Shown here: piece after piece, positions 21,873 through 39,305 of the stretch | Numbering within the stretch: the first letter of the stretch is position 1 | Layout: each line of letters starts with the position of its first letter | IMG/VR virus record: IMGVR_UViG_3300010151_007728 | Location: 1-53,359 of that record | DNA: 53,359 nt | DNA from: a virus | Reading direction: 5' to 3' (one strand) | Translations under genes and position numbers: made by a program | Notes under the pieces: model-generated | Databases searched by the model: none | Seen by the model: only the letters and a program-made list of their open reading frames with translations | Told to the model about the DNA's origin: nothing

Positions 21873-22796
21873 TTAATTTGTGTTATTATTTCGGGAGTTT
21901 ATATATTTTGCGCCGGAACTTTTTAAATAGTTGGCACCCATGATCTTTAAGTTCATTTTATGCTTAACTAACGCAGGTATCGTGTTAGAAACCATCTTTG
22001 TCACTTGTGGTAGTCCCATGGTAGACAACACATCTAAATCAGGAGTGGTTGCTATGCCAAAAAAAGGACTATAATGATAGTGTTGCAGCGTTGCGTTGTT
22101 AAATTTCATCTGATAATTAACAAAATTTATCAATGTACCATCTAGTTCTGATATCTTAGTAATTATCTGGTTCAAAAATTCTGAAATGTTCTTTCCCTTC
22201 ACTAGGGGCTGCATATCGTCATCGTTGTTCCCAGCTATAAGATCAATGCCTCCGATTGTACGTGTTGTGCCGCCTTGGGAATTTTTTGGATCAGTAGAGG
22301 TAATGAGTTTGATTCCTTCTCTAGATATAAGACGAAGATTATCTGCCTTAATGGCAATTGCAGATTTAGCTATCGCATTCCCAACGACGCCGGGTGCTAA
22401 TTTAAAATATTCATCAATATCGGATTTCTGAGAGATGTATATACGCGCTGCGTCCCTTCTAACATCTGGGTCTGCATAGAGGGGTTCGCCATTTGCGTCC
22501 GTGTCTTTTGCCTCATAGCTCATACGACCAACAACTATATCTATCATCGATGCTTGTGTATCGCCCTTTCCTCCATAGCCACTGAGCCGGTTACCCGGTC
22601 TGTCTCTGCCCAAGACTATGTAAGAACTATTCTTGCCCTGATATACTGTCTCGCATGGAGCTTCTATAAACTTAGGCATAGGTTCCACCAATTCTCCACA
22701 ATATATGCCGCGATACTGAAGATTATCCTGTCCTGTAGATAGAAACTTCTCTTTAGCTTTATTCAGACCTTTCTGCTGTATTGCAGCTTTAGACAT
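21873..22796 (-). CDS. Baseplate-region structural protein of unknown family
   Basis: I place the start at ATG 22796, giving 307 residues. It overlaps the stop of the spike gene as TAATG and has AAAGGA about 8 nt upstream; a GTG 24 nt earlier is possible but lacks a good site. The protein contains beta-rich segments such as NSSYIVLGRDRPG and AARIYISQKSD, and an internal RTIGGIDLIAGNNDD stretch that resembles the repetitive beta regions of spike-associated proteins. No catalytic motif, signal peptide or membrane helix is seen. Because it is translationally coupled to the spike and followed 14 nt later by the giant baseplate protein, a spike-tip, hub or spike-adaptor role is plausible. I do not recognise a named family. 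Confidence 0.6.
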   Translation of the reverse strand: MSKAAIQQKGLNKAKEKFLSTGQDNLQYRGIYCGELVEPMPKFIEAPCETVYQGKNSSYIVLGRDRPGNRLSGYGGKGDTQASMIDIVVGRMSYEAKDTDANGEPLYADPDVRRDAARIYISQKSDIDEYFKLAPGVVGNAIAKSAIAIKADNLRLISREGIKLITSTDPKNSQGGTTRTIGGIDLIAGNNDDDMQPLVKGKNISEFLNQIITKISELDGTLINFVNYQMKFNNATLQHYHYSPFFGIATTPDLDVLSTMGLPQVTKMVSNTIPALVKHKMNLKIMGANYLKSSGAKYINSRNNNTN

Positions 22797-25678
22797 TAGA
22801 CAAATCCTTTTCCTGACCACTCTTTATTGTTAGTATTTAGGGCAGTCTGGGTACTCTTTTCTGCTACGTAGATACTATATTCACCATCAGTTACATAATC
22901 CTCACCGGTATACCAAGCCTCTCTTGTTAGTTGAACTTCCCAATGCCAAGCCTCTGCCTTATAGGGACTTATTCCCCAACGATAGGCGTTCTTTTTTACC
23001 CACTTGTATAACTCGCCCTGCTTTTGCTTGCTATTTGTTTTTGAATATGGACCCATGGAGCCTTCTTTCCATCTATCCGGATGTGGTGACCGATATCGAA
23101 TATCAAAAGCTAACCCAGTTTCATGGGGGCTGTTCCAAGCGCGGAGGGTTCTCCCCTTTCTTACGCTGCCGTATTCATCGATCAAAAATAAATCAAACAA
23201 TTGTTTAAGTGAAGTTACTCCACTGGACTTAGCTTTCTTAACACTGGGATGCTTATCACCTCGCCGTCCAAGAAGCCATTTATACCTAATCTCTGGTGGC
23301 TCTCTTAAACCAGAGGCTAAACGAAATTTTCGGTTTCCCGTCTCCTTGCTCCATGCTTTATTCATCAGAACGACTCTTTTCGCAGCTAATTTGTGCATGG
23401 GCTTTCCATAGCAATCAACTATCAGGTCTTTATTTAAAAACTTTTGTGGAAAATTCCCAGCTCTTACACGATTCGATTTGAAGCGAGTACCGGACGAGAG
23501 GGAAATTTCCGTATTATCATATATGTATTCTTGAAGCCCGTCAACTCCTGCTTTAGAAGAAGGTGGCGTACTATTCTTAGCCGGCCTAGTCTCTTTGGGT
23601 TCTCCCTTAGAGCGACGGCATTTGGCTGCTTTTGGGCGCTGAGTTGCAGAAGAAGAAGATATGCCTGCACCAGATTTTTCAAGATTCAGTTGCTTCTCAA
23701 GACTATTTAGCGATTTGAGCGATTGTGATAACTCCTTGTCCTTTTGAGACAGCGTTCCTCTCAACTCTTGTGCCTTGATATAAGAAATGTCCCCTTTCAA
23801 AGCGGTACTTGAAAGCCCCTCTATCTCGTCTGCTAATTCTTCACGCTCTTTCTTCAAATCAGATACTTTCTTGCGCTTCTCGCTCAAAGTGGCTTCTTGT
23901 TGTGGGGTTAGTTTCGATTTAGCTATAGCGCTAGCTGCCACGTCGGATTCTGCAGACTTCTCTCTTGTCGTCTTAAGTCCAACATCCTTTTCTTCGGACG
24001 CTCGGACAGAATCGTCAATTCCATCCTCTTTGGGGCGCTTTTGCTTGCTAGATGTATCAGTCACTTCCTTAAGGTGTTCGGAAGCCACCATGGCAGTGCT
24101 GTTGGTCTCAGATGCAAGATTATCAATCTCATTTGCCATATTCTTCAGCAAAAACCACGAATTCATTGGCCAACGTTGATTTGTTCCGCCATTAGCCGCC
24201 TCCCAGGACCAATATGCTAACGCGCCCTTATGGTCGATATAATCTTGCGCGCTGTCTCCTAGAAGCCAACTAGTTCTTCTTATAATTTCCTCCGGAGGCT
24301 TCTTCCTAGTGCCATATTGGGGATAAAAAGGATTGTAAGTCTTTGTTCCGTAGAGTGACCCCATTGCCATAATATTGGTGAAGCCGGCTTCTACATATGC
24401 CTTTATGCCCTTGATCATATTTTTGGGTCCATATTCCGGAGCGGCGCGATAAGATTGGGGGATGACAAAATCTGCGGGAGCCAAATCGGCAAGAACATAT
24501 TTCAATTTAGGCTGAAATTGAGGAATTTCGTAAGAAGTGACCCCATAACACAACCCTGAACTATAGGCAGCTGCATTGCATTTATCGGTAAATTCCCTTA
24601 CTTTTTGCTTAAGTTTGGCGTTACTCATATTCCACTTGCCTTTTGGTTGGAATCCAGCTTCTGGATCAGATATAACGCCGGCACAGCCTGAGGCATATGC
24701 CGTAGCAAACATATAATCAACCCACTCATCTATTTTATGGATATTTGGAAACCCAAATAAGTATACTCGGATTCCGGCTGCGGCATATGCATCAACAAAT
24801 TCCTTGACCTTTTCTAGAGATGCGCTTTTGTCCTTCTTTATTTTGCCGTTGACCTTTTCTCCTGGAAACCATTGCCACATCCCAAGCGTAATAACAAAGT
24901 CTAGACCGGCGTCAATTGCTTGCGAGACAGGAAAAGCACCCAAGTTGGCATACATGTTGGTGAAAATCCCCTTGCCTTCAGGAATCCTCCCACGGTCGAG
25001 CGTCACATCAATCGGAGTATAATGGTTCCCTAAATCAGGGAAGTTCGCAACTATATTAGCTGGCGTTGAGTCTAGTTTGCCTCCGGATGCTGGTTTTCCC
25101 AATAATCGTCCACACGGACCAAACTTGCTAGACGGTTTTGCACTGGCACTCGTTTTCTTTAGCGTTCGACGTTTTATATTACTTATAAGTACGCCTCCCT
25201 CCAGATTCTCTATATTCTCAAACGTAACCCAAACAATATCCCCGACTGCTGGCTGTTCGATGTCGTTGCTTCGCGCAGTAAAAATGGGATACATGTCAAT
25301 AAGGTGGTTATCTTGTGCCGAACCGTTTCCTTTCGGAGAGGGCAAGATAGACCCGTGAATTTCCGGTATCATAGCTTTAACACTTACGAATTTCTTTGAA
25401 TCTGTATTGGCTCCTGCGCCCAAGAAGGGTGCTATCGTCTCCAAGAACCCGAAAGGAAGATCATCTTCCCCTACCGGGTTTTCAACCCTCAAAACAACAG
25501 CCTTAAACTGAGTCAACCCCTTAGTACTATCCGATTGGAACATACTCCTTGTAAACATGCGCAACAAATCCGCAGGATCCATACCGGAATCATAGATCAT
25601 CTTATCTTTTTTCGGTCCTACGGGATTTAAGGTACCGTAGGCATATGCATTCTCAGACAGAATATCTTTATCAGCCAT
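22796..25678 (-). CDS. Baseplate spike: gp5-like OB fold, TIM-barrel hydrolase-like domain and M15 peptidase
   Basis: The product has 960 residues and several domains. Residues about 55-170 resemble the OB fold of gp5/VgrG-type spikes (IPEIHGSILPSP, then QPAVGDIVWVTF). Residues about 222-510 look like a TIM barrel of glycoside-hydrolase type, opening with PIDVTLDRG and containing VITLGMWQW and GVISDPEAG; I cannot name the family. A coiled coil of Lys/Glu heptads follows at about 590-665. The C-terminus is a D-Ala-D-Ala carboxypeptidase/VanY-type M15 peptidase with H852-x-x-G-x-A-F-D859 and E-A-W-H912-W. Known gp5 cuts peptidoglycan during tail penetration with a lysozyme domain; here two different enzymatic modules seem to serve that purpose. 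The start overlaps the upstream stop by 8 nt (ATGGCTGA). Confidence 0.85.
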   Translation of the reverse strand: MADKDILSENAYAYGTLNPVGPKKDKMIYDSGMDPADLLRMFTRSMFQSDSTKGLTQFKAVVLRVENPVGEDDLPFGFLETIAPFLGAGANTDSKKFVSVKAMIPEIHGSILPSPKGNGSAQDNHLIDMYPIFTARSNDIEQPAVGDIVWVTFENIENLEGGVLISNIKRRTLKKTSASAKPSSKFGPCGRLLGKPASGGKLDSTPANIVANFPDLGNHYTPIDVTLDRGRIPEGKGIFTNMYANLGAFPVSQAIDAGLDFVITLGMWQWFPGEKVNGKIKKDKSASLEKVKEFVDAYAAAGIRVYLFGFPNIHKIDEWVDYMFATAYASGCAGVISDPEAGFQPKGKWNMSNAKLKQKVREFTDKCNAAAYSSGLCYGVTSYEIPQFQPKLKYVLADLAPADFVIPQSYRAAPEYGPKNMIKGIKAYVEAGFTNIMAMGSLYGTKTYNPFYPQYGTRKKPPEEIIRRTSWLLGDSAQDYIDHKGALAYWSWEAANGGTNQRWPMNSWFLLKNMANEIDNLASETNSTAMVASEHLKEVTDTSSKQKRPKEDGIDDSVRASEEKDVGLKTTREKSAESDVAASAIAKSKLTPQQEATLSEKRKKVSDLKKEREELADEIEGLSSTALKGDISYIKAQELRGTLSQKDKELSQSLKSLNSLEKQLNLEKSGAGISSSSATQRPKAAKCRRSKGEPKETRPAKNSTPPSSKAGVDGLQEYIYDNTEISLSSGTRFKSNRVRAGNFPQKFLNKDLIVDCYGKPMHKLAAKRVVLMNKAWSKETGNRKFRLASGLREPPEIRYKWLLGRRGDKHPSVKKAKSSGVTSLKQLFDLFLIDEYGSVRKGRTLRAWNSPHETGLAFDIRYRSPHPDRWKEGSMGPYSKTNSKQKQGELYKWVKKNAYRWGISPYKAEAWHWEVQLTREAWYTGEDYVTDGEYSIYVAEKSTQTALNTNNKEWSGKGFV

Positions 25679-27533: not shown

Positions 27534-28484
27534 TTACCATATAAAATTACTCTTGTAATGTTCTACAATATTTTTTATTTCTTTATCAAAATTCTTTCTC
27601 GGCTTCCAACCAAGATTCTTCAACTTTCTATCATTTAGGGCATACCTTATATCTTGTCCTTTGCGAAAAGTGTCAAAGTCCACATATTGTTCCCAATTGT
27701 CATCGGTACCATAATATGCCTCTATGACCTTTCTTACAGTTTCTGCGTTCGATTGCTCAAATCCTCCGGCTACATTATAAATTTGGTTAACATTGCCAGA
27801 ATCAATAATAGAAATCACTGCTTCAGCCGTGTCAGCTGCATGCAGCCAATTACGAGTTGGCACCCCTGCATCGTGAAGCTTGATCTTCTTGCCTCTAGCA
27901 AGATTCTTAACCGCAAGGGGTACTAGCTTTTCAGGATACTGTCCGATGCCATAGTTATTTGTCGGACGCAAAATAAGATATTTAATATCATAGGTTCTTG
28001 CCCAAGCGTGCACCAGCATATCGCCTGCCGCTTTTGCTGCTGAATATGGATTACTTGGCTTGAGTACATCCATCTCGGTGTGCGCGCCACTAACTATATC
28101 TCCATAAACCTCATCAGTGCTAATATGAAACATAATAGGTTTATCATTACAATTAACTGGTTTAAATCTAACCAAGTCTAATAGAGTTTTTACTCCCAAA
28201 ACGTTGCTATCAAGAAATTCATCGCTCTTGATGATACTGTTTCCGACATGCGATTCTGCTGCAAAATTTATAACGTAATCGCAATCATAGAGGTGCTTAA
28301 TATCTTTAATATCGCAACATTCAAAGTGAAAGTTTTCGTATTGATTGAATTCTTCTAAAAGCTGTGGATTGGCAGCATATGTCATTTTATCAATCCCGCG
28401 AACTTGCCAGCCAAGCTGTAATGCTCTTCTGGTCATATAAGAGCCGATAAACCCTAGACATCCGGTTATATATACGATTCTCAT
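27534..28484 (-). CDS. NDP-sugar 4,6-dehydratase, RmlB-like SDR
   Basis: The product has 316 residues and is an extended short-chain dehydrogenase. The NAD-binding motif TGCLGFIGS is at residues 7-15. The catalytic set is HISTDEVYGD, whose Asp-Glu pair is diagnostic of 4,6-dehydratases rather than 4-epimerases, and YSAAK. NNYG followed by QYPEKLVPL and RNWLHAADTA match the RmlB substrate region. The reaction would convert an NDP-hexose to an NDP-4-keto-6-deoxyhexose. The nucleotide cannot be read from sequence: RmlB itself uses dTDP-glucose, but CDP or UDP substrates are known in relatives. It overlaps the PLP enzyme gene by ATGA, which suggests they act in sequence. At 316 residues it is slightly short for RmlB (~350). 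Confidence 0.85.
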   Translation of the reverse strand: MRIVYITGCLGFIGSYMTRRALQLGWQVRGIDKMTYAANPQLLEEFNQYENFHFECCDIKDIKHLYDCDYVINFAAESHVGNSIIKSDEFLDSNVLGVKTLLDLVRFKPVNCNDKPIMFHISTDEVYGDIVSGAHTEMDVLKPSNPYSAAKAAGDMLVHAWARTYDIKYLILRPTNNYGIGQYPEKLVPLAVKNLARGKKIKLHDAGVPTRNWLHAADTAEAVISIIDSGNVNQIYNVAGGFEQSNAETVRKVIEAYYGTDDNWEQYVDFDTFRKGQDIRYALNDRKLKNLGWKPRKNFDKEIKNIVEHYKSNFIW

Positions 28485-29641
28485 TTTGCCCTTCTTTCTT
28501 CGAAGAATTGTTTTATTTTACCGCAAACATAATCAACATCGTCCAACGTCATGCCATGGTGGGCACCCAGCAAAAATCCATTTTTCATTATAATATCAGA
28601 ATTAGAGAATTCTTGTAAATATTCCCTATAGGCAGGATGCCTAGTGACATTACCGGCGAAAGTCACCCTTGTCTGAATGTTGCTTTCCTCAAGAAATGTC
28701 AAAAGCTCTAATCTATTCTGCGTCTGAAAAGGTATAGCCATCCAATTAGGATGTATGCTATCATCAGGCAAAAGGATTTCCTCAACATCTTTTAAATTGT
28801 GTAAATATCGCTCTATATTTTGTCTTCTAATTTTACGAAATGTGTCAAATTTTGCCAATTGAACTAGACCAAAAGCAGAATTCATTTCAGAGGATTTAAA
28901 GTTGTAACCCACTACCCCGTATAGAAATTTGAAATCGTATGGTATCCCATCAACTTGATGGTTGAAGCGCTCATCAATAAACTCAGAATTATTGCCAATA
29001 CGTCCCCAATCTCTAAGCTGAAGTGCAATATCAAGCTGTTCCCTATTGTTGAACATAGCCATTCCGCCCGAGCCTCCAGCAGTGATTATGTGACTGGCAT
29101 AAAAACTAGTTGTCGATATGTCGGTTTCGCCAGTGAAAGTTATGGTATCACAAGAATCTTCAATTAAAACAATATCGGTTCTTCCAATGTTACCTAATTC
29201 CTGCTTAAGTCGGGCCCAATCGGGTTTATTACCCACCAAATTAGGAAGCATAATAACTCTGGTTTTGGAGGTGATCTTTTCCAATACACTTCGTACACTC
29301 GGTACATATTTATCAAGCTCAACATCGCAAAAGACAGGAACACAGCCCAATTGTAGTATAGGGGCAACGGTTGTAGAGAAGGTACACGCAGGAGTTACAA
29401 CCTCACTGCCGCGTGGAAGAGCCAAGCTGCCGAGTGCTATTAAGTTAGCAGAAGATCCAGAATTCACAAAGACTCCATGCTTCTTGCCAAAAAGCTTGGC
29501 AACTTTTTCTTCAAATTCTACGGTTCTCTTACCAAAGCCGGCTAGCCAGCCGTCCCTTAGACATTCTTCGACAGCCTTGATTTCTTCTTCGCCATATGCC
29601 TCGAAACCATTAGGGGCATACCAAACTTTTTCTCTACTCAT
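28481..29641 (-). CDS. PLP-dependent sugar 3-dehydratase, ColD/RfbH-like (Schiff-base Lys replaced by His184)
   Basis: The product has 386 residues and belongs to the DegT/DnrJ/EryC1 fold. FVNSGSSANLIAL is the phosphate-binding loop and IEDSCDT carries Asp162, which would bind the PLP ring nitrogen. The Schiff-base motif reads SFYASH, codon CAC at 29090-29092, where sugar aminotransferases have Lys. ColD and the E1 enzyme RfbH/DdhC also have His here and remove the 3-hydroxyl instead of transferring an amino group. RfbH/DdhC carries iron-sulfur cysteines in the DWGR region; here DWGRIGNNSEF has none, which points to the ColD-type mechanism. RVTFAGNVTRHP also matches that branch. The ATG has AAAAGG 7 nt upstream, and a 13-codon leader ORF overlaps it by 8 nt. 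The substrate is probably the product of the neighbouring 4,6-dehydratase. Confidence 0.85.
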   Translation of the reverse strand: MSREKVWYAPNGFEAYGEEEIKAVEECLRDGWLAGFGKRTVEFEEKVAKLFGKKHGVFVNSGSSANLIALGSLALPRGSEVVTPACTFSTTVAPILQLGCVPVFCDVELDKYVPSVRSVLEKITSKTRVIMLPNLVGNKPDWARLKQELGNIGRTDIVLIEDSCDTITFTGETDISTTSFYASHIITAGGSGGMAMFNNREQLDIALQLRDWGRIGNNSEFIDERFNHQVDGIPYDFKFLYGVVGYNFKSSEMNSAFGLVQLAKFDTFRKIRRQNIERYLHNLKDVEEILLPDDSIHPNWMAIPFQTQNRLELLTFLEESNIQTRVTFAGNVTRHPAYREYLQEFSNSDIIMKNGFLLGAHHGMTLDDVDYVCGKIKQFFEERRAK

Positions 29642-29675
29642 CGTGGAGCCTTTTAAAATTAAAAATCATATTCAC
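29634..29675 (-). CDS. Putative 13-codon leader ORF upstream of the PLP dehydratase
   Basis: A GTG at 29675 follows a strong GGGGAGGGG site with normal spacing. It reads 13 codons (NMIFNFKRLHDE after the start) and ends at a TAG that overlaps the next ATG as ATGAGTAG. The same 8-nt overlap joins several undoubted gene pairs in this window. It may couple translation of the dehydratase, or be a remnant of a deleted gene. Confidence 0.4.
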   Translation of the reverse strand: MNMIFNFKRLHDE

Positions 29676-29753
29676 AAGAAACCCCTCCCCATATTTTGAA
29701 TAAGATGTTCTATCATAACATCATTAAGAAATATATTTAAGAATATTTTTTAA

Positions 29754-29761
29754 TATTTATA
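29754..29761 (-). promoter_or_regulatory. Candidate T4-type late promoter (TATAAATA)
   Basis: The exact late-promoter octamer TATAAATA reads on the minus strand in the 125-nt gap between the SDR and PLP dehydratase genes, about 113 nt before the dehydratase start. A gp55-like sigma factor is encoded in the same window. In AT-rich DNA several copies are expected by chance, for example one inside the gene at 53165-53172, so only the intergenic location adds support. A TATGAT -10-like box also lies in this gap. Confidence 0.35.
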
Positions 29762-29766
29762 ACCAG

Positions 29767-30543
29767 TTATGCGTTTAATTTTATTTTATCAATAGTTTCT
29801 TCAAGCCTGGGAGGAAAATCGCTATCTATAATTTGATTTAAATAATTCGTGTTTGTACCAGAATACTCTTCATAGCCGGCATCAACGATTTTGATATCTG
29901 CTGCGGAATTACATCTTTGTTTTATTATATCAGCGATTTCCAATAAAGTTAAGGAAGTTTTATAACTACAATCTATATTCTTTTCTAATGTGTCACTTAC
30001 AACATAGTATTCAACAAGTTTCAATAAATCTTTCATATGAAAAAAATCCATTTTTTTATTTTTATGAATTATAATGTCTTCTCCAGACAAAGCCCTTTTA
30101 GTGTTTGCTTTAATAAATCTAGTATCCATCTCGTACTCATCAAAAAGACCATATATGTTTAAATTATAACAGCCCAGTGTTGAATCAATGATGTTTGACA
30201 TGGCTCTCTTGCTTATCCCGTATGGCTCGCTAGAATAGTGTTGTGCTCCGGAGCCAAAGTGTATTAATTTTCTGTATCTGTCTTTATTTTTAAAGATGTT
30301 TAAAAACATTTGCATATTTTCGTAGAGAACTTCCGAATGATCATTCTTTAGACGGCTGCCTCCAACTACAGCACAGTGTATAACAATATCGAAATTATTA
30401 TTGTTGAAAATCCCATCAACAGCCTCAGTGTCTAGTAAATCACAAACTTTTCTGGTGTGGGCAAACACTTCATTGTGTTTCTCTAGGTGTTTCGCTAGGC
30501 TTCTTCCAACATATCCGTTAGCGCCCGTTAGCATTATTCTCAT
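29767..30543 (-). CDS. NAD-dependent sugar epimerase/reductase (extended SDR)
   Basis: The product has 258 residues, shorter than the usual ~300 for extended SDRs. TGANGYVGRSL at residues 6-16 is the nucleotide-binding motif; HFGSGA followed by YGISK supplies the catalytic Ser/Tyr/Lys set. The middle has NIYGLF, as in GDP-fucose synthase and ColC-like reductases. Such enzymes epimerise and/or reduce the 4-keto group at the end of deoxysugar pathways, which fits its place beside the 4,6-dehydratase and 3-dehydratase. It overlaps the HAD gene by ATGA. A 125-nt gap follows before the PLP enzyme gene. The substrate is unknown; ketoreductase is the best guess. Confidence 0.75.
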   Translation of the reverse strand: MRIMLTGANGYVGRSLAKHLEKHNEVFAHTRKVCDLLDTEAVDGIFNNNNFDIVIHCAVVGGSRLKNDHSEVLYENMQMFLNIFKNKDRYRKLIHFGSGAQHYSSEPYGISKRAMSNIIDSTLGCYNLNIYGLFDEYEMDTRFIKANTKRALSGEDIIIHKNKKMDFFHMKDLLKLVEYYVVSDTLEKNIDCSYKTSLTLLEIADIIKQRCNSAADIKIVDAGYEEYSGTNTNYLNQIIDSDFPPRLEETIDKIKLNA

Positions 30544-30974
30544 TTTACTTCTTCTAATGCCGCTTCCCAGTTTTTAATATCATAAGCCTTATCCTCTAAG
30601 TATGTCATCGTGTCTTTCCAGTTTTGAAAATGATATCCCTTATCATCAATATAAATCTGCGCTCTAGGTTTCTCAGCTGTAATTTCTTTTACATATTGCA
30701 TAACATTGTGTTCAGTCAGCCATTCTTCTACAAGCTCGGGACCTGTTTTGCCATTTACTAGCGGACGACTTGGTTTTGCTTTAGCAGTAAAAATAATAAT
30801 ATTATAAGATTTAGATAATTCCTTTATAGCTTCTAGGGATCCCTCTAGAGGCTCCCCATAACACGTACCATCATACCAGCCTTTATCAAAATTATGTATT
30901 ACGCCATCAAAATCAATTGCAATATTTTTTAAATCTTCTTCAAATCCCGGAGGGACTTCTTTGTAACTAATCAT
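30540..30974 (-). CDS. HAD-superfamily phosphatase-like protein
   Basis: The product has 144 residues with the HAD motif I DFDGVIH (D-x-D) near residues 18-24, motif II IIFTAK, and the acidic motif IDDK (residues about 109-112). It lacks a clear cap domain and is closer to small phage and capsule-locus HAD proteins than to GmhB. The likely activity is removal of phosphate from a sugar phosphate or nucleotide. GAGGAAAA before ATG supports the start. The gene overlaps its upstream neighbour by 8 nt (ATGATTAG) and its downstream neighbour by ATGA, so it is part of the sugar operon. Confidence 0.7.
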   Translation of the reverse strand: MISYKEVPPGFEEDLKNIAIDFDGVIHNFDKGWYDGTCYGEPLEGSLEAIKELSKSYNIIIFTAKAKPSRPLVNGKTGPELVEEWLTEHNVMQYVKEITAEKPRAQIYIDDKGYHFQNWKDTMTYLEDKAYDIKNWEAALEEVK

Positions 30975-31218
30975 TTTTCCTCATTACCATAATAATAGTG
31001 TTATTCTCAATCTTTTCAAAAACATCCGTCAATACTTTTAAAATGCCCACAGAGACAATATCGCCGGGTCCAGCTACATTGATTCCATAGTCTGTTACGA
31101 GACCTCCACGCAAGAATATAATATTCTCTTCATCTTCATTCCCAGCACCACAAATCATTTTAAAATAATTTTCCCGTTCTAATAACTGTTTTAAGTCTTC
31201 GTATCTTTGATTTGTCAT
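30967..31218 (-). CDS. Small protein of unknown function in the sugar island
   Basis: The product has 83 residues, with AAGGAAAG upstream of ATG and a 4-nt overlap (ATGA) with the aldolase gene. Sequence features are an N-terminal charged helix, then ICGAGNEDEENI and a Gly-rich middle (VAGPGDIVSVG) that looks like beta-strand-loop sequence, and a basic C-terminus. It could be a fragment of a barrel enzyme or an accessory subunit of the aldolase next door, but neither can be shown. I do not recognise a family. Confidence 0.55.
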   Translation of the reverse strand: MTNQRYEDLKQLLERENYFKMICGAGNEDEENIIFLRGGLVTDYGINVAGPGDIVSVGILKVLTDVFEKIENNTIIMVMRKND

Positions 31219-32042
31219 AATCTTTCCTTTAAAATATCTGCCCTATGAAGATAAGAATCGCCAATACTGTTATAATTTATAGCTTTGTACCTTAACCATT
31301 GTATTTCATACCTTAATATAGATTTTATAGTATCATATAGGTTATTCACATTATAGTCATCAAGCTCCACTACTACATTTCTTGTCTCAATCTTATCTAA
31401 TAAATTATTGGAGTGCAAATACTTAATGAACTCAACACTATTAGTAGATATGTTACCTCCCATGGTTGTTTTCAATCCTAAATTTTTACTTTTTCGAAAA
31501 ATATCTTCAACTTTATCAGAAATTATCTGGCTGTCGACTTCACTTTTATCTAGATTATGCGACTTAGTAAAATCTGACCGCCCTACAATGACACCAGATA
31601 GTTTTTTTGCCTCTTCGGATTCTAATATAGAATCAATATTAGAATAGGCAGTCTCGGTCTCACATAAAAAATAGAAACTGGTCTCTTTAATTTTACTCAC
31701 AGCGTTAATAAATTTTTGAAATGAATATTTCGTCTCAATCATGGGTGCGATAAGAGAATCGATACCTAGTGTGACACAATTATTAATATCAGTTATGGCC
31801 TCACAGCCGCCGATTTTAACATACATCAACATACCACATAATTCTGTGACTCTCCTCATTGTTGTTACATCAGATAACAACGCTCCCTCATCCTCAAATG
31901 ATTGTTTAATGCCTGTGATATTGTACTGTTTATTTAGATATTTTAAATTTTTAATAAGTAATTGTACAGTGTTATTTTCGAGGTCTTCATAATCATATCT
32001 TTTACCATGCCATTTGCCAGTTATTTTTTTTCTGTCGGTCAT
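31215..32042 (-). CDS. HpcH/HpaI-type aldolase (citrate lyase beta-like)
   Basis: The product has 275 residues, the family's usual length. VKIGGCEAITDI and IDSLIAPMIET match the barrel strands that lead to the active site. The metal ligands appear as E128 in LCETETA and D157 in VGRSDFT. Family members cleave or form C-C bonds with pyruvate or acetyl-CoA-type donors. It sits 2 nt from the TPP enzyme stop and overlaps the 83-residue gene by ATGA, so it very probably works with the TPP enzyme. Its role in sugar synthesis is not obvious; it could make or use a 2-keto acid donor. GGAG lies 9 nt before the ATG. Confidence 0.75.
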   Translation of the reverse strand: MTDRKKITGKWHGKRYDYEDLENNTVQLLIKNLKYLNKQYNITGIKQSFEDEGALLSDVTTMRRVTELCGMLMYVKIGGCEAITDINNCVTLGIDSLIAPMIETKYSFQKFINAVSKIKETSFYFLCETETAYSNIDSILESEEAKKLSGVIVGRSDFTKSHNLDKSEVDSQIISDKVEDIFRKSKNLGLKTTMGGNISTNSVEFIKYLHSNNLLDKIETRNVVVELDDYNVNNLYDTIKSILRYEIQWLRYKAINYNSIGDSYLHRADILKERL

Positions 32043-32043
32043 T

Positions 32044-33819
32044 TCACTCGCTCCATATCGGTATTATCATTTCTTCATTAAACTCTTCTTCCGTTAAAAA
32101 CGGAGACATATTTTCTAATGGCTGTGATGTTATTTTACCGTCCTTATTTTGTTGAGAAGCGGCAGTAGGATATATCTCTTCGTCAGAAGGGCATATTACT
32201 TCACAAATACAGCATTGTCCATATTGTAATACCTCTACAAGAGTTTTTTCAAGGTCATTTTTGTCTTCTATTTTAAAATATTTTATACCATAAGCCGCAG
32301 CTATTTTTTCACTTTCTGGAAAAGAGATTCCGGATTGGGGGTCAACGCCAGAAAACCTTTTTGAAAAATACTTTGTTTGAGTATTTTTAATAGATAAATA
32401 CCCACCATTGTTCAATATGAATAGTTTAATAGGCAATTCATATTGTACGATAGTCTGCAATTCTTGTATGTTAAACTGGAAAGAGCCTTCTCCTGTTACA
32501 GCTAGAACCTTTAAATCCCTATCTGCCAACGAGACTCCAATCGAAGCTGGCACAGTAAAGCCCATCTCACCTTGCGAAGCCGGCATTATGAGGCGGCTAT
32601 CCTCCACGGATTGCGCCATGACATAATAAGCAGACCCCGCATCAACTACAACAGCTGTCTCTTGCCCCTTTGTTAAGCTTGACAGTGCTTTGGAGAATGA
32701 ATACATATTCAACTGGTCAATGTCTTTTCTTTTAAAAACAGGCCATTTCTCTCTCCAGCGTTGGCAATTGGAAACCCACAAAGAATCAATATCGTATTGG
32801 GCTGTCTTGTTGGAAGACAAAAATTGTTTTGCATCCATCTCTATAATCTTGTCAATTTTTATTGTCTCTTTCATATGCGCAGTCTTATCAATGTCAATAA
32901 CAATCTTTTTAGCTTCTCTAGCAAAAAGTTCGTATCTATATCCCACAACTGGAATACTCAATGAACTTCCAATTGAAATAACAAGATCTGAGTTGGCAAC
33001 CGCAAAATTGCCAGCTCTAGTGCCCTTTATGCCTAGACGACCGATGTAAAGAGGGTGTTCAACTGGAAGTAAATCTGTTCCTAGAAAAGTAAAGGCGCAA
33101 GGAATTCGATAATGTTCTACAAAGCGCTTAAACTCCTCCCTAGCATCAGCCAAGTGAATGCCATTACCAGCAATTATTATTGGTCTTTTTGATTTCTTTA
33201 AAAAATATTCAAAATCTTCACTGTGAAAGCTATATGTAGATTTATCTTGTTTTTTTGGCTCCCAATGTTGTAGGTCTTCTAAAAAAATTTCTTCAGACTG
33301 TACATCTAGTGGTACATCGATCCAAACTGGACCGGGGCGACCAGTCGTAGCAAGATGATATGCTTTCTCTAAAATTAAAGCTATATCCACAGGGTCCTCT
33401 ACCATGGTGGAATATTTAGTAATTGACTTAATTATCTCTATTATATTAACTTCTTGTGCGCCTAGCTTTCTTAGTGGGATTTTCGACATATAGGTGGTGT
33501 CTTTCTTATTTGCCTGTCCTGAAACAATAAACAATGGATGACTATCTTGCCAAGCATCCAAAACGCCAGTTATAGTATTAGTGGAACCACAACCAGAAGT
33601 TGGTATCACCAGAGCCATCTTGTTGTGGACTTTTGCATATCCAACGGCGGCCATGGCGCACGACTGTTCATGGTGACAAAAAATTGACTGCATGTTGCTC
33701 CTCGCAACAGCATCATTTAAAAACATGGCACCACCGCCAGGAACCTGAAAAGCGTGAGACATGCCTTTTTTCTCCAAGAACCCTATTATATAATCAGCAA
33801 CTTTAAGACCCTTTCTCAC
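32044..33819 (-). CDS. Thiamine-diphosphate-dependent enzyme, acetolactate-synthase-like
   Basis: I choose GTG 33819 as the start because AAAGG lies 8 nt upstream, giving 591 residues; a GTG 9 nt earlier is possible but has no well-spaced site, and no ATG lies upstream before a stop. The N-terminal Pyr domain has the catalytic Glu51 in HHEQSCAMAA. The C-terminal PP domain has GEGSFQFN and NNGGY, the Mg-ThDP motif. The central region has VIGSS-type FAD/structural sequence as in acetolactate synthases. In carbohydrate loci such enzymes (YerE for yersiniose) add a two-carbon unit from pyruvate to a 4-keto sugar. The 17-codon leader ORF upstream ends at the TGA that overlaps this GTG. The YerE comparison is an inference from enzyme class and neighbours. 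Confidence 0.8.
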   Translation of the reverse strand: MRKGLKVADYIIGFLEKKGMSHAFQVPGGGAMFLNDAVARSNMQSIFCHHEQSCAMAAVGYAKVHNKMALVIPTSGCGSTNTITGVLDAWQDSHPLFIVSGQANKKDTTYMSKIPLRKLGAQEVNIIEIIKSITKYSTMVEDPVDIALILEKAYHLATTGRPGPVWIDVPLDVQSEEIFLEDLQHWEPKKQDKSTYSFHSEDFEYFLKKSKRPIIIAGNGIHLADAREEFKRFVEHYRIPCAFTFLGTDLLPVEHPLYIGRLGIKGTRAGNFAVANSDLVISIGSSLSIPVVGYRYELFAREAKKIVIDIDKTAHMKETIKIDKIIEMDAKQFLSSNKTAQYDIDSLWVSNCQRWREKWPVFKRKDIDQLNMYSFSKALSSLTKGQETAVVVDAGSAYYVMAQSVEDSRLIMPASQGEMGFTVPASIGVSLADRDLKVLAVTGEGSFQFNIQELQTIVQYELPIKLFILNNGGYLSIKNTQTKYFSKRFSGVDPQSGISFPESEKIAAAYGIKYFKIEDKNDLEKTLVEVLQYGQCCICEVICPSDEEIYPTAASQQNKDGKITSQPLENMSPFLTEEEFNEEMIIPIWSE

Positions 33820-33866
33820 TCCACACACCTTTCCAATATTAATCCTTTCTCAAACATTCTTGTCAT
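33816..33866 (-). CDS. Putative 16-residue leader ORF upstream of the TPP enzyme
   Basis: ATG 33866 has GGAG with a 6-nt spacer and opens a 17-codon frame ending at TGA 33816-33818, which overlaps the GTG start of the TPP enzyme as GTGA. The gap between the glycosyltransferase and the TPP gene is otherwise empty. It has the same layout as the leaders before the PLP enzyme and the methyltransferase, which makes coincidence less likely. Confidence 0.4.
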   Translation of the reverse strand: MTRMFEKGLILERCVE

Positions 33867-33925: not shown

Positions 33926-34852
33926 TCAACCTTTTTCTTCATATATGTAGTCTTTGTATTTCTCTAAATTATCAATCAAATATTTGGGATGTGATTGTTC
34001 AGTTATTTCAACCTTTTCAAATGGATAATCTTGGAACATTCTTTCTAATGCTTCTTCTTTGGTGGTGTGTGTAAATTTTACTTTTTGTCCAGGAATTATA
34101 TCTTTAGAATGTGCCCAACTACGTTGTTTTTCTAAAACTTTCTCTCCATCGGTATTATCAAAAAAAGTAAAATGCCAGCCAGCGTTTTTTATGGGATCGT
34201 GAGTGTGCGAACCTAGACATCTCAATTTACCGTGTAGTATTTGTTTCAATACAGATACTTCTGTCATCGTCGCGACGGTCAACTGTTGATTAAAGAAATT
34301 AAATTTATAAACATAAGTATCCAACACAAATCCAAAAGTGGGTCTTATTTGAAAAGGATCACCAGACGATGTTCTCACGGGTCCAAATTTGTTGTGTAAA
34401 TCATGCTTCTTGTTTTTAGGTTCAAATCTCTTTAAAGCTTCGGCAAATGCTTCCTTTTTTATAATTTCGTCGAGAGCACCTTGCAACACTATATCATCAT
34501 CTTTGCCCCCATCTTCTAAAATAATTTTAAGACAATAATTACCTTGAAAAAGATCTCTAACCCAGTCATCAGAGGTTTGTCCAAGGAAGGTTCGATCAAG
34601 AACAGTAAAATCATCTATTAAATTCATATTTCTAGGTATTTCTTCTGCAAATGAATCAAATGTTATATAGATTAGTTTTTCAGAATACTTTTTAAACCTC
34701 TCTTTATCAAAGTTAAAAGGCTTTTTAAGTCCTGTGTGGGTTTCTCCAGCTTCCACAACAATAAACTTATCTACAAAATCCCAATGCTGGTTGAGTCTTA
34801 GTTCAAATAAATCATTTTCATTTAAAAACGTACAACAATCATATACAGTCAT
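33926..34852 (-). CDS. Glycosyltransferase family 17-like
   Basis: The product has 308 residues, the usual GT17 length. The family opening is clear: VYDCCTFLNENDLFELRL and later VEAGETHTGLKKPF. GT17 enzymes transfer N-acetylglucosamine-type sugars onto glycans; bacterial and phage members are uncharacterised. HDPIKNAGWHFTFF near residue 225 is also a family feature. AGGAG lies before the ATG. The gene stands between the TPP enzyme and the methyltransferase in the sugar island. Donor and acceptor are unknown. Confidence 0.85.
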   Translation of the reverse strand: MTVYDCCTFLNENDLFELRLNQHWDFVDKFIVVEAGETHTGLKKPFNFDKERFKKYSEKLIYITFDSFAEEIPRNMNLIDDFTVLDRTFLGQTSDDWVRDLFQGNYCLKIILEDGGKDDDIVLQGALDEIIKKEAFAEALKRFEPKNKKHDLHNKFGPVRTSSGDPFQIRPTFGFVLDTYVYKFNFFNQQLTVATMTEVSVLKQILHGKLRCLGSHTHDPIKNAGWHFTFFDNTDGEKVLEKQRSWAHSKDIIPGQKVKFTHTTKEEALERMFQDYPFEKVEITEQSHPKYLIDNLEKYKDYIYEEKG

Positions 34853-34877: not shown

Positions 34878-35771
34878 TTAAATAGCTAGTTTACACACAA
34901 CTTGAAAAATATATGTCGAAATCTGTCCGGATATTTTTAGTTTTCTTACATCCAAGAGTTCTAGTCCGGAAGAACATACCAATTTCCTTAATGATGTAGG
35001 GTTAAAAAAACTAATATGTTCGTGCCAATGTCTCTTATTTATATGTAAATTAGATAAATTATTTTTCTCTAATGTCTTTCTAACGTAATCTTCATATGGT
35101 AGTTCTATGTATAAAATACTATCTTTTCCCATACAAGCTTTGATTTCATTTAAAGTATTTTTAGGATAAGGAGTGTGTTCCAAAACATTACTACATATTA
35201 TAAGACCATAATCAAAATCATACAATTGCGTTTTATTTACTTTTTTTACTTTGGGTAAAACAAAATTATCCGAAATATCATATATGTGAAGCGAACGGCA
35301 TTGCGAGTAAAAGGGTGTATTGTTTCCAGGACCGCCGCCCCAATCTAAAATATCTAAAATGTTAGATATTTGATCAGTTTTTAGCCATGGCTTTAAAAAT
35401 GTCTCAACATGTTGGAGATAATTATATCCTAAAAGATATTTTGAGTTTCTTTGTGTATATCCTGGCTCATACATCTCTCGAAGTTCTGTATATTCTTTTT
35501 CTCTATATTTTTTATAAAGATTCTGTAATTCGTTATCATCGAAGCGCAAGTCCAGAAACAAATGAAAACATTCAGTACACAATAAGGAGTTACATCTTGT
35601 GTAGGTTGGTCCGTTTCTGATTCCATATTTTTCTAAGCCCCACTCATCCGTTATTTCAAGTGACGCGTAACCCCAAAGTCTGTGTGTGATGAAAGGTAAA
35701 AGTATAGCAGGAGACTTTTTTAAATCGATGCTGTCGCAACAAACACATCTTTGTGCTATTCTATCATTCAT
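34878..35771 (-). CDS. SAM-dependent methyltransferase with N-terminal zinc-binding cysteines
   Basis: I start at ATG 35771 (297 residues). A TTG 21 nt earlier would have no ribosome site, and a leader ORF ends by overlapping ATG 35771 by 8 nt (ATGAATGA). The N-terminus has C-V-C-C and later C-N-S-L-L-C-T-E-C, a zinc site like that of sugar C-methyltransferases. The SAM site is ILDWGGGPG, with IYDISD after it and NVLEHTPYP (motif post-I) downstream. FFNPTSLRKLV is typical of methyltransferase family 11/23 ends. It is shorter than full sugar C-methyltransferases (~410), so the C-terminal domain is missing. It is likely to methylate a sugar in this island. Confidence 0.75.
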   Translation of the reverse strand: MNDRIAQRCVCCDSIDLKKSPAILLPFITHRLWGYASLEITDEWGLEKYGIRNGPTYTRCNSLLCTECFHLFLDLRFDDNELQNLYKKYREKEYTELREMYEPGYTQRNSKYLLGYNYLQHVETFLKPWLKTDQISNILDILDWGGGPGNNTPFYSQCRSLHIYDISDNFVLPKVKKVNKTQLYDFDYGLIICSNVLEHTPYPKNTLNEIKACMGKDSILYIELPYEDYVRKTLEKNNLSNLHINKRHWHEHISFFNPTSLRKLVCSSGLELLDVRKLKISGQISTYIFQVVCKLAI

Positions 35772-35817
35772 CTGGGGGCCTATAATTCTCAAATGTTATT
35801 ATAATTGCTTTTTTCAT
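35764..35817 (-). CDS. Putative 17-residue leader ORF upstream of the methyltransferase
   Basis: ATG 35817 follows GGAGG with a 6-nt spacer, the best ribosome site in the neighbourhood. It reads 17 codons (MKKAIIITFENYRPPDE) and its TGA overlaps the methyltransferase ATG as ATGAATGA. The methyltransferase itself lacks a separate strong site, so re-initiation after this leader is likely. The peptide resembles the start of a longer protein, so a remnant of a deleted gene is an alternative. Confidence 0.5.
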   Translation of the reverse strand: MKKAIIITFENYRPPDE

Positions 35818-35893: not shown

Positions 35894-36697
35894 TTATTCT
35901 CCTTTAAATTTTTTCGGTATATTACAGATTTTCTTAAGATGTTCTGCGACGGCGGGTACAAAATGCTTAGTTAAGTCGAATTTTGGAAAAACATCGCCAC
36001 CAGCATAGTGCAATAATTTTATTAATTTTTCATCCAGCCATAATTTGTTATCCCTGAGTTCAATTCTCTCCCAGCTCTCCCAATGTTTTAAAGGATGCCC
36101 ATTCCAGCGTTCAACGTCGCCGTAGGTGCTAGCAATATTATAATATAGCGGCTTGTCCGGTGGATCCAGCAACTTAACTTTATATTTACCTGAATCTAAG
36201 ATAATATTCAAATTATCTTGCTCATGCATCGGATATTTATTATAATTCTTTTGGTTTAAATCAACCCAATCATCCCAAAATTCTTTCTTAGTAGAAGCTA
36301 CCAATCCTGCGTTTGCATATTTAAAGACATCAATTTCCCCCCCCAGATTATATGGAGGTCCGCAACCTGCGGATCCTTGATCAGAATTATTTCTAGCAAC
36401 AGCAATATCGTAATCTCCCTCTAATATTTCATCTAGACGATCCGTTACAATCATATCCGTATCAATATGTACTACTAAATCGTAATCGTCTGCTATCGTT
36501 CTTGTCAATAATGGATTAAAATAAGATGCATGCATCGGTACCACCGTCTGTACTTCTTTGTTGATTTCTTTCTCGGTAAGCATATATAAGGGAATATCCG
36601 GATGAAAATGCTTAAAAGAACTCATCATCTTAAACGTTCCGTATTCAACAATAGCGTGATCATTGCCATAAATATATGATATAAATGCTACCTTCAT
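35894..36697 (-). CDS. Glycosyltransferase, GT-A fold
   Basis: The product has 267 residues. The metal-binding DxD motif is in HIDTDMI (D79, D81), preceded by a short GT-A nucleotide-binding half and followed by YANAGLVAS, the common GT8-like active-site strand. Further on, PMHEQDNLN supplies an acidic motif, and LLHYAGGD near residue 235 gives the C-terminal His seen in retaining GT8-like enzymes. GGGAG lies before the ATG. It is 13 nt from the GT9-like gene upstream. A 101-nt gap follows (35793-35893). Donor and acceptor sugars are unknown. Confidence 0.75.
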   Translation of the reverse strand: MKVAFISYIYGNDHAIVEYGTFKMMSSFKHFHPDIPLYMLTEKEINKEVQTVVPMHASYFNPLLTRTIADDYDLVVHIDTDMIVTDRLDEILEGDYDIAVARNNSDQGSAGCGPPYNLGGEIDVFKYANAGLVASTKKEFWDDWVDLNQKNYNKYPMHEQDNLNIILDSGKYKVKLLDPPDKPLYYNIASTYGDVERWNGHPLKHWESWERIELRDNKLWLDEKLIKLLHYAGGDVFPKFDLTKHFVPAVAEHLKKICNIPKKFKGE

Positions 36698-37487: not shown

Positions 37488-37829
37488 TCAATCTCCTTTT
37501 ACAATTCTATGACTATCTTCATCAAAATGTTGAGTAGAAAACTCAAATAATTCAGTATCTTGTAATGCTATCATTTGGTGTCTCATACCTACAGGCACAT
37601 GAAAATTATCTCCTGCTTCAAGGATAATTTTTCTTGCTGCTTGGAGATCATCATTATATGAATACTTTACCATAATTCTGCCGCTTTGTATATAAAAAAC
37701 TTCATCTTTTATCTTATGGTAATGCCATGAACACTTTTTTCCTTTTACAAAATAAAGTAATTTCCCACAATATTTGTCACAGTTAACAATCCATTTTTCA
37801 AATCCCCATCCTTTAGGGACGAACTTCAT
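37488..37829 (-). CDS. Cupin-domain protein, mannose-6-phosphate-isomerase-like
   Basis: The chosen start is ATG 37829 (113 residues), with GAAG 6 nt upstream; an ATG 24 nt earlier has its site touching the start codon. The metal-binding cupin motif 1 is CSWHYHKIKDEVFYIQSG (His, His, Glu) and motif 2 is GDNFHVPVGMRHQM. This pattern matches the cupin half of type II phosphomannose isomerases. It could isomerise a sugar or sugar phosphate, or be a sugar-binding regulator. It overlaps the HAD gene by 17 nt and precedes a GT9-like gene. Confidence 0.75.
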   Translation of the reverse strand: MKFVPKGWGFEKWIVNCDKYCGKLLYFVKGKKCSWHYHKIKDEVFYIQSGRIMVKYSYNDDLQAARKIILEAGDNFHVPVGMRHQMIALQDTELFEFSTQHFDEDSHRIVKGD

Positions 37830-38154
37830 CGGAATCTTCAAAGAAATCTCCATCCTTCATTGCTTTGTCATCAATATAAATATCTCCAGCCGGTTTGCCC
37901 AAAAATAACTGATGGTATTTAACGCCCCAGCTTTTAAGCTGTCTTGCCGTAAAAAGATAAAAGTCGGCCTCTGCCATGGACCTTCTATTACCATGGCGAC
38001 CCATGCCGCGAGCTGTGTTATATAATATTGTGTGTCCTTCATCGTATAATTTATTAAGCTTCTCAATTCTGTCTTCAAAAGGCTTAGAATCTTCATAAGT
38101 TAGATCCTTGCTTATGGTACATATAGTACCATCTATATCAACTATATAGACCAT
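37813..38154 (-). CDS. HAD-superfamily phosphatase-like protein
   Basis: The product has 113 residues. VDIDGTIC near the N-terminus is HAD motif I (D6, D8), YNTARG is motif II, and IYIDDKA is the late acidic motif. GGGAG lies 8 nt before ATG, and the gene overlaps the kinase by 17 nt and the cupin by 17 nt. Its order after an HldE-like kinase fits removal of the 7-phosphate in heptose synthesis (GmhB-like), but it is much shorter than GmhB (~190), so this is a guess. It resembles small capsule-locus HAD proteins. Confidence 0.7.
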   Translation of the reverse strand: MVYIVDIDGTICTISKDLTYEDSKPFEDRIEKLNKLYDEGHTILYNTARGMGRHGNRRSMAEADFYLFTARQLKSWGVKYHQLFLGKPAGDIYIDDKAMKDGDFFEDSDEVRP

Positions 38155-38935
38155 CTCTAATCTCCCTTATTTCTTCATTTGTCAAAGAGTAAGCGCCTAT
38201 CTTCTTAACTGTAGTTGCCGCGCACTTGTTTGCAAATATTATTGATGTTGCTATATTATTGGTTGAAAGATACTCACTGATAAGTGCAGCAAAAAAGGTG
38301 TCTCCAGCTCCAGATACATCAAAAACCTCCGTAGGATCCGAAGGGAAATGCAAGCCATCCCAAGATGCTCCTTTCTCTCCGAGAGTAACAATCATATCAT
38401 ACTTGTTGGGTAGCTTTTCAATTAATTCTCTTTCTTTCTCGTTAATCTTTATTATTGCGTCCTCGAAACAGCTTAAGTCTGTCTTTTTGCTATCAACAAA
38501 CAATAATTTATTGATTCTCTTACACATGTGAGACAATGTTTCGCAATTATGATAATCTAAAATGCCCTTGTTGTAATCAGATACCACGATACAATCATAT
38601 TGGCTTAAATCTAAACCGCCGACTGTCAGTGGGTCTAATGATTTATCTTCTCCGGTATCTAAACGCAAAAGCTGCTGTCCGGACCTCTCATCGATGAATC
38701 TTTCTTTTGTAATCAAATGATTTTCATTGCTAACAGTTCGAACATCAATATCAAAAGAAATAAGATTCTTCTCTACATTCAGAGCCATTCCGGGCATCAC
38801 CTTTGTTTTTATAAGCTTGAAAACTGGAACGGGTGCTTCTGGAGATAATCTATCGCACCTTCCAAAATGGTATTTATCGGTGCACCCATCACCCAGAAGT
38901 AATATCTTGTATGATTTTTGTTGTTGAGTAGCCAT
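38138..38935 (-). CDS. HldE-like sugar kinase (PfkB family, RfaE domain I)
   Basis: The product has 265 residues, matching the N-terminal kinase domain of HldE (~315) but slightly short. RLSPEAPVPV at residues 29-38 is the hallmark of the HldE kinase domain, and DVSGAGDTFFAAL at 206-218 is the PfkB signature with catalytic Asp212. The kinase phosphorylates D-glycero-D-manno-heptose-7-phosphate at C1 in known HldE. The glycine-rich N-terminal motif is GMALNV instead of the usual GGAANV. The start ATG has GAGAG upstream and overlaps the nucleotidyltransferase gene by 47 nt. In bacteria the two HldE activities are often one fused protein; here they are separate. Confidence 0.85.
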   Translation of the reverse strand: MATQQQKSYKILLLGDGCTDKYHFGRCDRLSPEAPVPVFKLIKTKVMPGMALNVEKNLISFDIDVRTVSNENHLITKERFIDERSGQQLLRLDTGEDKSLDPLTVGGLDLSQYDCIVVSDYNKGILDYHNCETLSHMCKRINKLLFVDSKKTDLSCFEDAIIKINEKERELIEKLPNKYDMIVTLGEKGASWDGLHFPSDPTEVFDVSGAGDTFFAALISEYLSTNNIATSIIFANKCAATTVKKIGAYSLTNEEIREIRDGLYS

Positions 38936-39305
38936 CTATTCTCTCGAAAAACTTCAATTCCTTGGCAAATTGACTTCCTATAACCTTTTTGTCTCTATAG
39001 TCCGATCCTACAAACATTATATCCGGACTTATCTTGTTTAATTTATCTTCTAAAGCTTGATGAGAATCAAAAACAAAAACCTCTTCAATTCCCTTTATGT
39101 TCTCTAAAAAGTATTTCCTCTCATCCTGACTATTGTAGGGGCGTGAGCCGCCTTTGGCGCTTCGTACCATTAAATCAGAGTCGATTCCTACAATTAAGTA
39201 GTCACACTGATTTCTGCAAAACTCGAACAGCCTCAAGTGCCCTGTATGCAAAATATCAAAACATCCATTCACAAACCCTACTTTACTATAACTTAAATCC
39301 ACCAT
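38889..39305 (-). CDS. HldE-like nucleotidyltransferase (RfaE domain II)
   Basis: Using ATG 39305 (GAAG 6 nt upstream) gives 138 residues; a GTG 12 nt earlier is also possible. GCFDILHTGHLRLFEFC is the HxGH nucleotidyltransferase motif, and YSTTKIIQDI near the C-terminus is the S-T-T-x-I motif of this class. It would activate heptose-1-phosphate with ATP (or GTP/CTP) to NDP-heptose. It overlaps the GT9-like gene at its start and the kinase at its end, so the three are one transcript. The nucleotide cannot be predicted. Confidence 0.85.
   Translation of the reverse strand: MVDLSYSKVGFVNGCFDILHTGHLRLFEFCRNQCDYLIVGIDSDLMVRSAKGGSRPYNSQDERKYFLENIKGIEEVFVFDSHQALEDKLNKISPDIMFVGSDYRDKKVIGSQFAKELKFFERIDGYSTTKIIQDITSG

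Follow-up and report, generated by a model that had tools for sequence, protein, structure and literature searches.

The YerE-like carboligases, which depend on thiamine diphosphate (TPP), have been described as enzymes of bacterial lipopolysaccharides (PMC12247030). In the yersiniose A pathway, encoded by YerE/YerF and genes for a cytidine diphosphate (CDP)-linked 3,6-dideoxyhexose, 4,6-dehydration and an E1-type 3-deoxygenation are combined with YerE-type branching and a reduction by a short-chain dehydrogenase/reductase (SDR). The erwiniose and caryophyllose pathways (ErwE, MMAR_2332), also bacterial and described with CDP sugars, employ a YerE-like enzyme with a proposed 4-hydroxy-2-oxo-acid donor and produce a long branch; erwiniose, for instance, is a 10-carbon branched sugar (PMC8657720). 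Pyruvate is the preferred donor of YpYerE, while ErwE uses 4-hydroxy-2-oxo acids and refuses pyruvate, and a 2025 review named viruses among the places where unexplored YerE-like orthologues may be found (PMC12247030). Here, we describe a set of seven genes in an uncultured virus, the IMG/VR record IMGVR_UViG_3300010151_007728 (53,359 bp, analysed at full length and referred to as the window), which an initial annotation had read as a possible yersiniose-like pathway. From sequence comparisons and structural models, we consider it fairly probable that this phage encodes a route to a C4-branched 3,6-dideoxy nucleotide sugar, in which a YerE-like carboligase would be fed by an aldolase. The genes are:

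27534..28484, minus strand: RmlB-type (dTDP-)glucose 4,6-dehydratase, 316 residues (TIGR01181; STDEVYG and YSAAK motifs)
28481..29641, minus strand: E1/RfbH-like 3-dehydratase with the pyridoxal phosphate (PLP)-type DegT fold, 386 residues (RfbH model; His kept, [2Fe-2S] cysteines absent)
29767..30543, minus strand: reductase of the SDR/epimerase fold, 258 residues, candidate side-chain ketone reductase with a YerF-like role (PF01370)
30540..30974, minus strand: HAD-like protein, 144 residues, candidate sugar-acid phosphatase (phrog_1238; weak NT5C match)
30967..31218, minus strand: chimeric open reading frame (ORF) of 83 residues (partial matches to two unrelated proteins)
31215..32042, minus strand: HpcH/HpaI-type class II 2-oxo-acid aldolase, 275 residues (PF03328, profile search, Foldseek)
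32044..33828, minus strand: YerE-like TPP carboligase, 594 residues, GTG start (PDB search, fold, tree, motifs)

The five enzyme classes and the 83-residue ORF named in the initial annotation are thus found in place on the minus strand, together with the small HAD-like gene, which it did not list. As delimited by a simple ORF caller, the seven genes overlap or abut in the order of transcription, from the TPP enzyme through the aldolase (1 nt), the 83-residue ORF (−4 nt), the HAD-like gene (−8 nt) and the SDR (−4 nt) to the E1-like and RmlB-like genes (−4 nt between the two), with a 125-nt spacer ahead of E1 as the sole exception.

On sequence and modelled fold, the TPP enzyme is YerE-like and not a housekeeping acetolactate synthase (ALS). 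Its best match is JanthE, a YerE-like carboligase of Janthinobacterium sp. HH01 (PDB 8rph-8rpj), with 34% identity; in the PDB search, 8rph scored 363 bits (E 2e-107) and the best ALS 249 bits (7.5e-73). The top six Foldseek matches of its AlphaFold model (pLDDT 87.8) are all JanthE, with TM-scores of 0.89-0.91 against 0.84 for acetohydroxyacid synthase. In a tree of 157 sequences, a comparison that the initial annotation had proposed, it does not group with housekeeping ALS: the ALS outgroup splits from JanthE and all YerE-like sequences with a support of 0.765, and most phage TPP enzymes lie near the bacterial sequences L036-L040 (L-numbers label the analysed viral or bacterial loci). The phage enzyme shares with JanthE the catalytic Glu (Glu54), the residues P293 and Y297 and the motif NNxGYLxIKxTQ, its sequence NNGGYLSIKNTQ standing where ALS has NNxxLGMVxQ. 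The P293 column, a Pro in the window, holds Arg in five of six ALS sequences, where we take it to bind the acceptor carboxylate. The phage enzyme differs from JanthE in a GEG motif for CDG, in Thr for Lys567 and in Lys for Tyr268. Bacterial genomes with a YerE-like gene encode separate ALS paralogues besides, which reach about half the score.

Matches to generic TPP and ALS models could suggest a viral ALS that boosts branched-chain amino acid synthesis and lies beside sugar genes by chance. We regard this as very improbable, as JanthE is nearer in sequence, fold and tree, the ALS-type Arg and motif are missing, and the linkage to E1, RmlB and SDR genes is conserved across many phages; tree, fold and motifs together rule out the housekeeping enzyme.

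The YerE-like enzyme varies in its architecture. In 30 viral loci, most of one phage clade (L003-L034, e.g. L026:10001-11745), it is split between the central and PP domains into ORFs of about 340 and 245 residues, typically with a 4-nt overlap. An N-terminal cupin is fused to it in ORFs of about 785-940 residues in bacterial L054, L058, L062, L073, L075, L090, L096, L105 and L113 and in viral L166 and L192, and this cupin occurs free-standing beside the TPP gene in L123.

The gene set is not a chance arrangement, because it was found again in other viral contigs. Our scans yielded 33 and then 80 viral loci (the latter kept from 242 matches) and 80 bacterial loci, picked through conserved peptide patterns; with counts inflated by phage relatedness, the set is present in 109 analysed viral loci, or 74 after dereplication at 95%, which we compared with 75 bacterial loci. 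The search of related phages that the initial annotation had called for thus shows that the set recurs, and E1-type and RmlB genes share one gene run with the TPP enzyme here and in most viral relatives. SDR homologs occur in 59 of the 74 dereplicated viral loci, directly downstream of the TPP gene in 17. Among the sampled gammaproteobacterial genomes, 7 of 369 carry a YerE-like gene. Among the matches listed, we recognised neither a cultured phage with the gene set nor a YerE-like gene in a named phage: the named-phage matches all have less than 60% identity, and the ones listed resemble ALS of the host, several of them in records that are unverified or bacterial. Several 'phage' records with an apparent bacterial ALS, such as OR847010.1 and MG065691.1, are probably host DNA. 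Our search of the open-access literature (subscription journals were outside its scope) turned up no account of a YerE pathway in phages.

The first departure from yersiniose A concerns the nucleotide carrier. The 4,6-dehydratase scores 293 bits with the dTDP-glucose 4,6-dehydratase model TIGR01181 and 85 bits with the CDP-glucose model, and its best PDB matches are dTDP-glucose dehydratases. RmlB is encoded in 46 of the 74 viral loci and in none of the 75 bacterial ones. Conversely, CDP-glucose 4,6-dehydratase (28/75) and glucose-1-phosphate cytidylyltransferase (36/75) are found in the bacterial loci and in none of the 74 viral loci. Because the viral loci have RmlB and none of the CDP-glucose genes, the carrier of the phage sugar is probably dTDP, apparently after a move from CDP, and the CDP-sugar substrate of the initial annotation is probably not the right one. 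Its remark that the nucleotidyltransferase is missing holds in that no RmlA/RfbF-type gene is seen near the set. A CTP_transf_like gene of the window (38889-39317) belongs to a separate HldE-like cassette (37488-39317) with an HldE-like kinase and weak HAD and cupin genes, possibly for an activated heptose, which is common to PanB-type marine phages (e.g. L137).

The second departure concerns the 3-dehydratase. It matches the RfbH model with 268 bits and carries a His instead of the Lys that binds PLP, at the catalytic His/Lys position of E1. It lacks the CxC...C...C motif of the [2Fe-2S] cluster, which is present in all full-length relatives beside phage YerE genes except L035 and L123; E1 with the Fe-S cysteines occurs in 65 of the 74 viral loci. 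The Fe-S-free type is found in L035 (93% identity), L123 (72%) and bacterial L083 (42%), and since the bacterial protein shows the same loss, it represents an older subtype. No partner reductase for E1 was found among the island genes. ColD, a GDP-4-keto-6-deoxymannose 3-dehydratase of the His type that also lacks an Fe-S cluster, uses PLP and an amino donor and no ferredoxin. By analogy, the Fe-S-free E1-type enzyme may do the same. It differs from ColD in that it is closer to E1/RfbH (199 versus 137 bits) and groups apart from ColD-like phage proteins. Such proteins, a second group of Fe-S-free His-type DegT enzymes, are found in L003, L028, L030, L123, L138, L153, L161, L162, L177, L180, L182, L184, L188 and L194, often near GMD- or fucose-synthase-like genes, and may belong to a colitose-like phage pathway.

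The third departure is the aldolase beside the TPP enzyme. It scores 26.5 bits with PF03328 (cutoff 25), an assignment backed by profile and fold searches: its AlphaFold model (pLDDT 89) matches SwHKA/HpaI in Foldseek (E 2e-8), with the class II pyruvate-aldolase fold and the metal-type Glu/Asp pair, here Glu128 and Asp157, invariant among 23 homologs. It differs from these enzymes in its own KxxFExEG and KIGG motifs, with only 11-14% identity and TM-scores of 0.5-0.6. A viral search with the single sequence gave no match, and alignments were used as queries instead.

The initial annotation had considered the aldolase an extra, which is unlikely in view of the exchange of genes in this place. 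Three unrelated enzymes that make 2-oxo acids alternate as neighbors of the TPP gene among the 157 loci, an aldolase in 22, PanB in 28 and a class I aminotransferase in 22, in nearly all occurrences at most three genes away, and two of them occur together just once; on the tree, they change 11, 5 and 9 times, respectively. L131/L134 have flanking genes in common with the window, with PanB in the slot of the aldolase. In the reverse search, a YerE-like gene lay at most 4 kb from PanB in each of 80 viral PanB loci. Both PanB and the aldolases of PF03328 are known to form 4-hydroxy-2-oxo acids (PMC7610986). The donor for the TPP enzyme is probably made by the aldolase, and because phage YerE loci exchange this enzyme for PanB or an aminotransferase, this donor would be longer than pyruvate. 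The branch is then probably a long hydroxylated chain of the erwiniose/caryophyllose kind, not the two-carbon unit of yersiniose.

We rejected the idea that the aldolase is tied to YerE alone, since a TPP gene within 6 kb is missing from 20 of 56 viral loci with the aldolase, and 18 of these contigs have none at all. We therefore asked whether TPP genes and genes resembling CMP-ulosonate cytidylyltransferases (80 bits with the PseF model, under its cutoff of 206) exclude each other. Of 57 aldolase loci, 37 have the TPP gene only, 15 the cytidylyltransferase-like gene only, 5 neither and none both (p=7e-10; p=2.9e-6 after dereplication at 80%), and genes for an Fe-S protein and HAD occur in both groups. 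On the simplest interpretation, the aldolase forms a 3-deoxy-ulosonate-type 4-hydroxy-2-oxo acid, which would be either CMP-activated or spent as the donor of YerE. Loci with the cytidylyltransferase-like gene and without YerE (L116/L297, L305, L306, L309, L313, L315-L317, L324, L325, L327, L328) may encode a phage ulosonic-acid pathway.

The Fe-S/HAD pair occurs in 11 of the 23 dereplicated phages with aldolase and TPP enzyme, and a dehydroquinate-synthase-like gene in 11. Together with an SDR, the latter lies near YerE in viral L172-L191 and bacterial L053, L074 and L103, mostly in loci that have the aldolase, and in bacterial L065, L078, L099 and L102, which lack it; we speculate that the pair converts 3-deoxy-arabino-heptulosonate 7-phosphate (DAHP) to a 3,7-dideoxy-heptulosonate donor, as for a caryophyllose-type chain. 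The HAD-like family stands beside the aldolase and a cytidylyltransferase-like gene in L297, L316, L317 and L328.

Several observations weigh against an aldolase-fed route. The aldolase is a distant member of PF03328, shared phage ancestry partly inflates the exclusion counts, and RmlB at the locus is no proof that the 3-dehydratase or the TPP enzyme accepts dTDP-sugars. The Mg motif of the TPP enzyme is GEG instead of GDG, as in 25 other analysed sequences, and JanthE itself has CDG; the phage enzyme would be expected to be active. Lastly, no aldolase adjoins the TPP enzyme in the relatives L121 and L123. This last point, the pyruvate preference of YpYerE and the 15-20 viral loci in which the aldolase goes without YerE and with a cytidylyltransferase-like gene would also fit a true yersiniose-type pathway, in which pyruvate supplies the two-carbon unit and the aldolase belongs to another, unrelated pathway of the same glycan island, for an ulosonic acid or a heptose. 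Given the 1-nt gap between the two genes, the lack of any aldolase locus with both partners, PanB in the same slot of syntenic phages and an RmlB-type dehydratase that is unlike the CDP route, we consider this rather unlikely. In short, the PDB search, the fold, the tree, the motifs and the conserved neighbors support YerE-type branching of a 4-keto-3,6-dideoxy sugar, and strict yersiniose is not supported, in view of the RmlB-type enzyme, the missing Fe-S cysteines and the aldolase.

The 83-residue ORF, which the initial annotation had seen as a possible part of a new variant, looks like a truncated remnant. Residues 1-29 resemble the N-terminus of an LdpA-like ferredoxin protein of about 385 residues with two 4Fe-4S motifs (59% identity to L002), which occupies the same spot in L002, L118, L119 and others; residues 28-83 resemble the C-terminus of the L123 cupin protein (39%), encoded there ahead of the HAD gene. 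The HAD and E1 genes that flank it are L123-like too (71-72%), and the TPP, aldolase and RmlB genes are nearest to L002/L118. The ORF is probably a recombination scar with no function in the pathway. A general role of the LdpA-like protein as electron donor of E1 has become less likely, because its gene tracks the aldolase, also where the TPP gene is missing, and most loci with an Fe-S E1 lack it.

Upstream of the gene set lie glycosyltransferase and methyltransferase genes, of which the nearest context is:

33926..34852, minus strand: GT17-like glycosyltransferase, candidate transferase of the product sugar (PF04724)
34878..35792, minus strand: S-adenosylmethionine (SAM) methyltransferase, context gene (domain scan)
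35894..36697, minus strand: protein of unassigned family, context gene (homologs beside other sugar islands of phages; 30 viral loci have the family)

GT17 homologs lie near YerE in L011, L119 and L174 too. The likeliest guess from this context is that the sugar decorates glycans on the surface of the host or the virion. Phages also glycosylate their DNA, and the branched sugar could modify DNA bases instead; yet the genes examined include none recognised as encoding a base-modification enzyme, and the neighboring glycosyltransferases, methyltransferase and HldE-like genes are typical of surface glycans, which makes this a far-fetched option. The window also encodes baseplate-wedge, PhoH and PDDEXK proteins, and one baseplate protein points to Microcystis phage Mel-JY01 and Flavobacterium phages as the nearest named phages (32% identity). 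Beside the tail genes, a protein of 960 residues (22796-25678) weakly matches D-Ala-D-Ala carboxypeptidase (M15) close to its C-terminus.

Taken together, the aldolase-fed route would proceed as follows; the steps are assigned by sequence, fold and gene context, from which we also infer substrates, donor identity and target. The RmlB-type enzyme would convert host dTDP-glucose to a 4-keto-6-deoxy sugar, from which the Fe-S-free E1-type enzyme would remove O-3, probably in a ColD-like manner with PLP and an amino donor, to give the 4-keto-3,6-dideoxy sugar. The aldolase would join pyruvate and an aldehyde to a 4-hydroxy-2-oxo acid of the 3-deoxy-ulosonate type, with the HAD protein perhaps acting as a phosphatase. 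The YerE-like enzyme would decarboxylate this acid and add the acyl anion to C4, forming a tertiary alcohol whose branch is long and hydroxylated; the SDR would reduce the ketone of this branch before the neighboring glycosyltransferase places the sugar on the surface glycan.

More tentatively, this may be one instance of a widespread, modular viral pathway for dTDP-linked C4-branched higher sugars, in which the core (RmlB, E1-type, YerE-like, SDR) stays constant and the module that supplies the 2-oxo-acid donor is exchanged: an HpcH/HpaI aldolase with the Fe-S/HAD or the dehydroquinate-synthase-like/SDR pair, PanB, or an aminotransferase. The aldolase module would otherwise pair with a cytidylyltransferase for CMP-ulosonic acids. 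A different side chain is predicted for each donor module, which makes the idea directly testable and might yield carboligases for tertiary alcohols.

YerE-like enzymes and the full core set are now found in 109 analysed loci of uncultured phages. Moreover, ilvB-like and panB genes tend to be assigned to amino-acid or pantothenate metabolism in virome surveys; in these phages, they are linked to the branching of a sugar. If the modular pathway exists, related phages would write different side chains on one scaffold.

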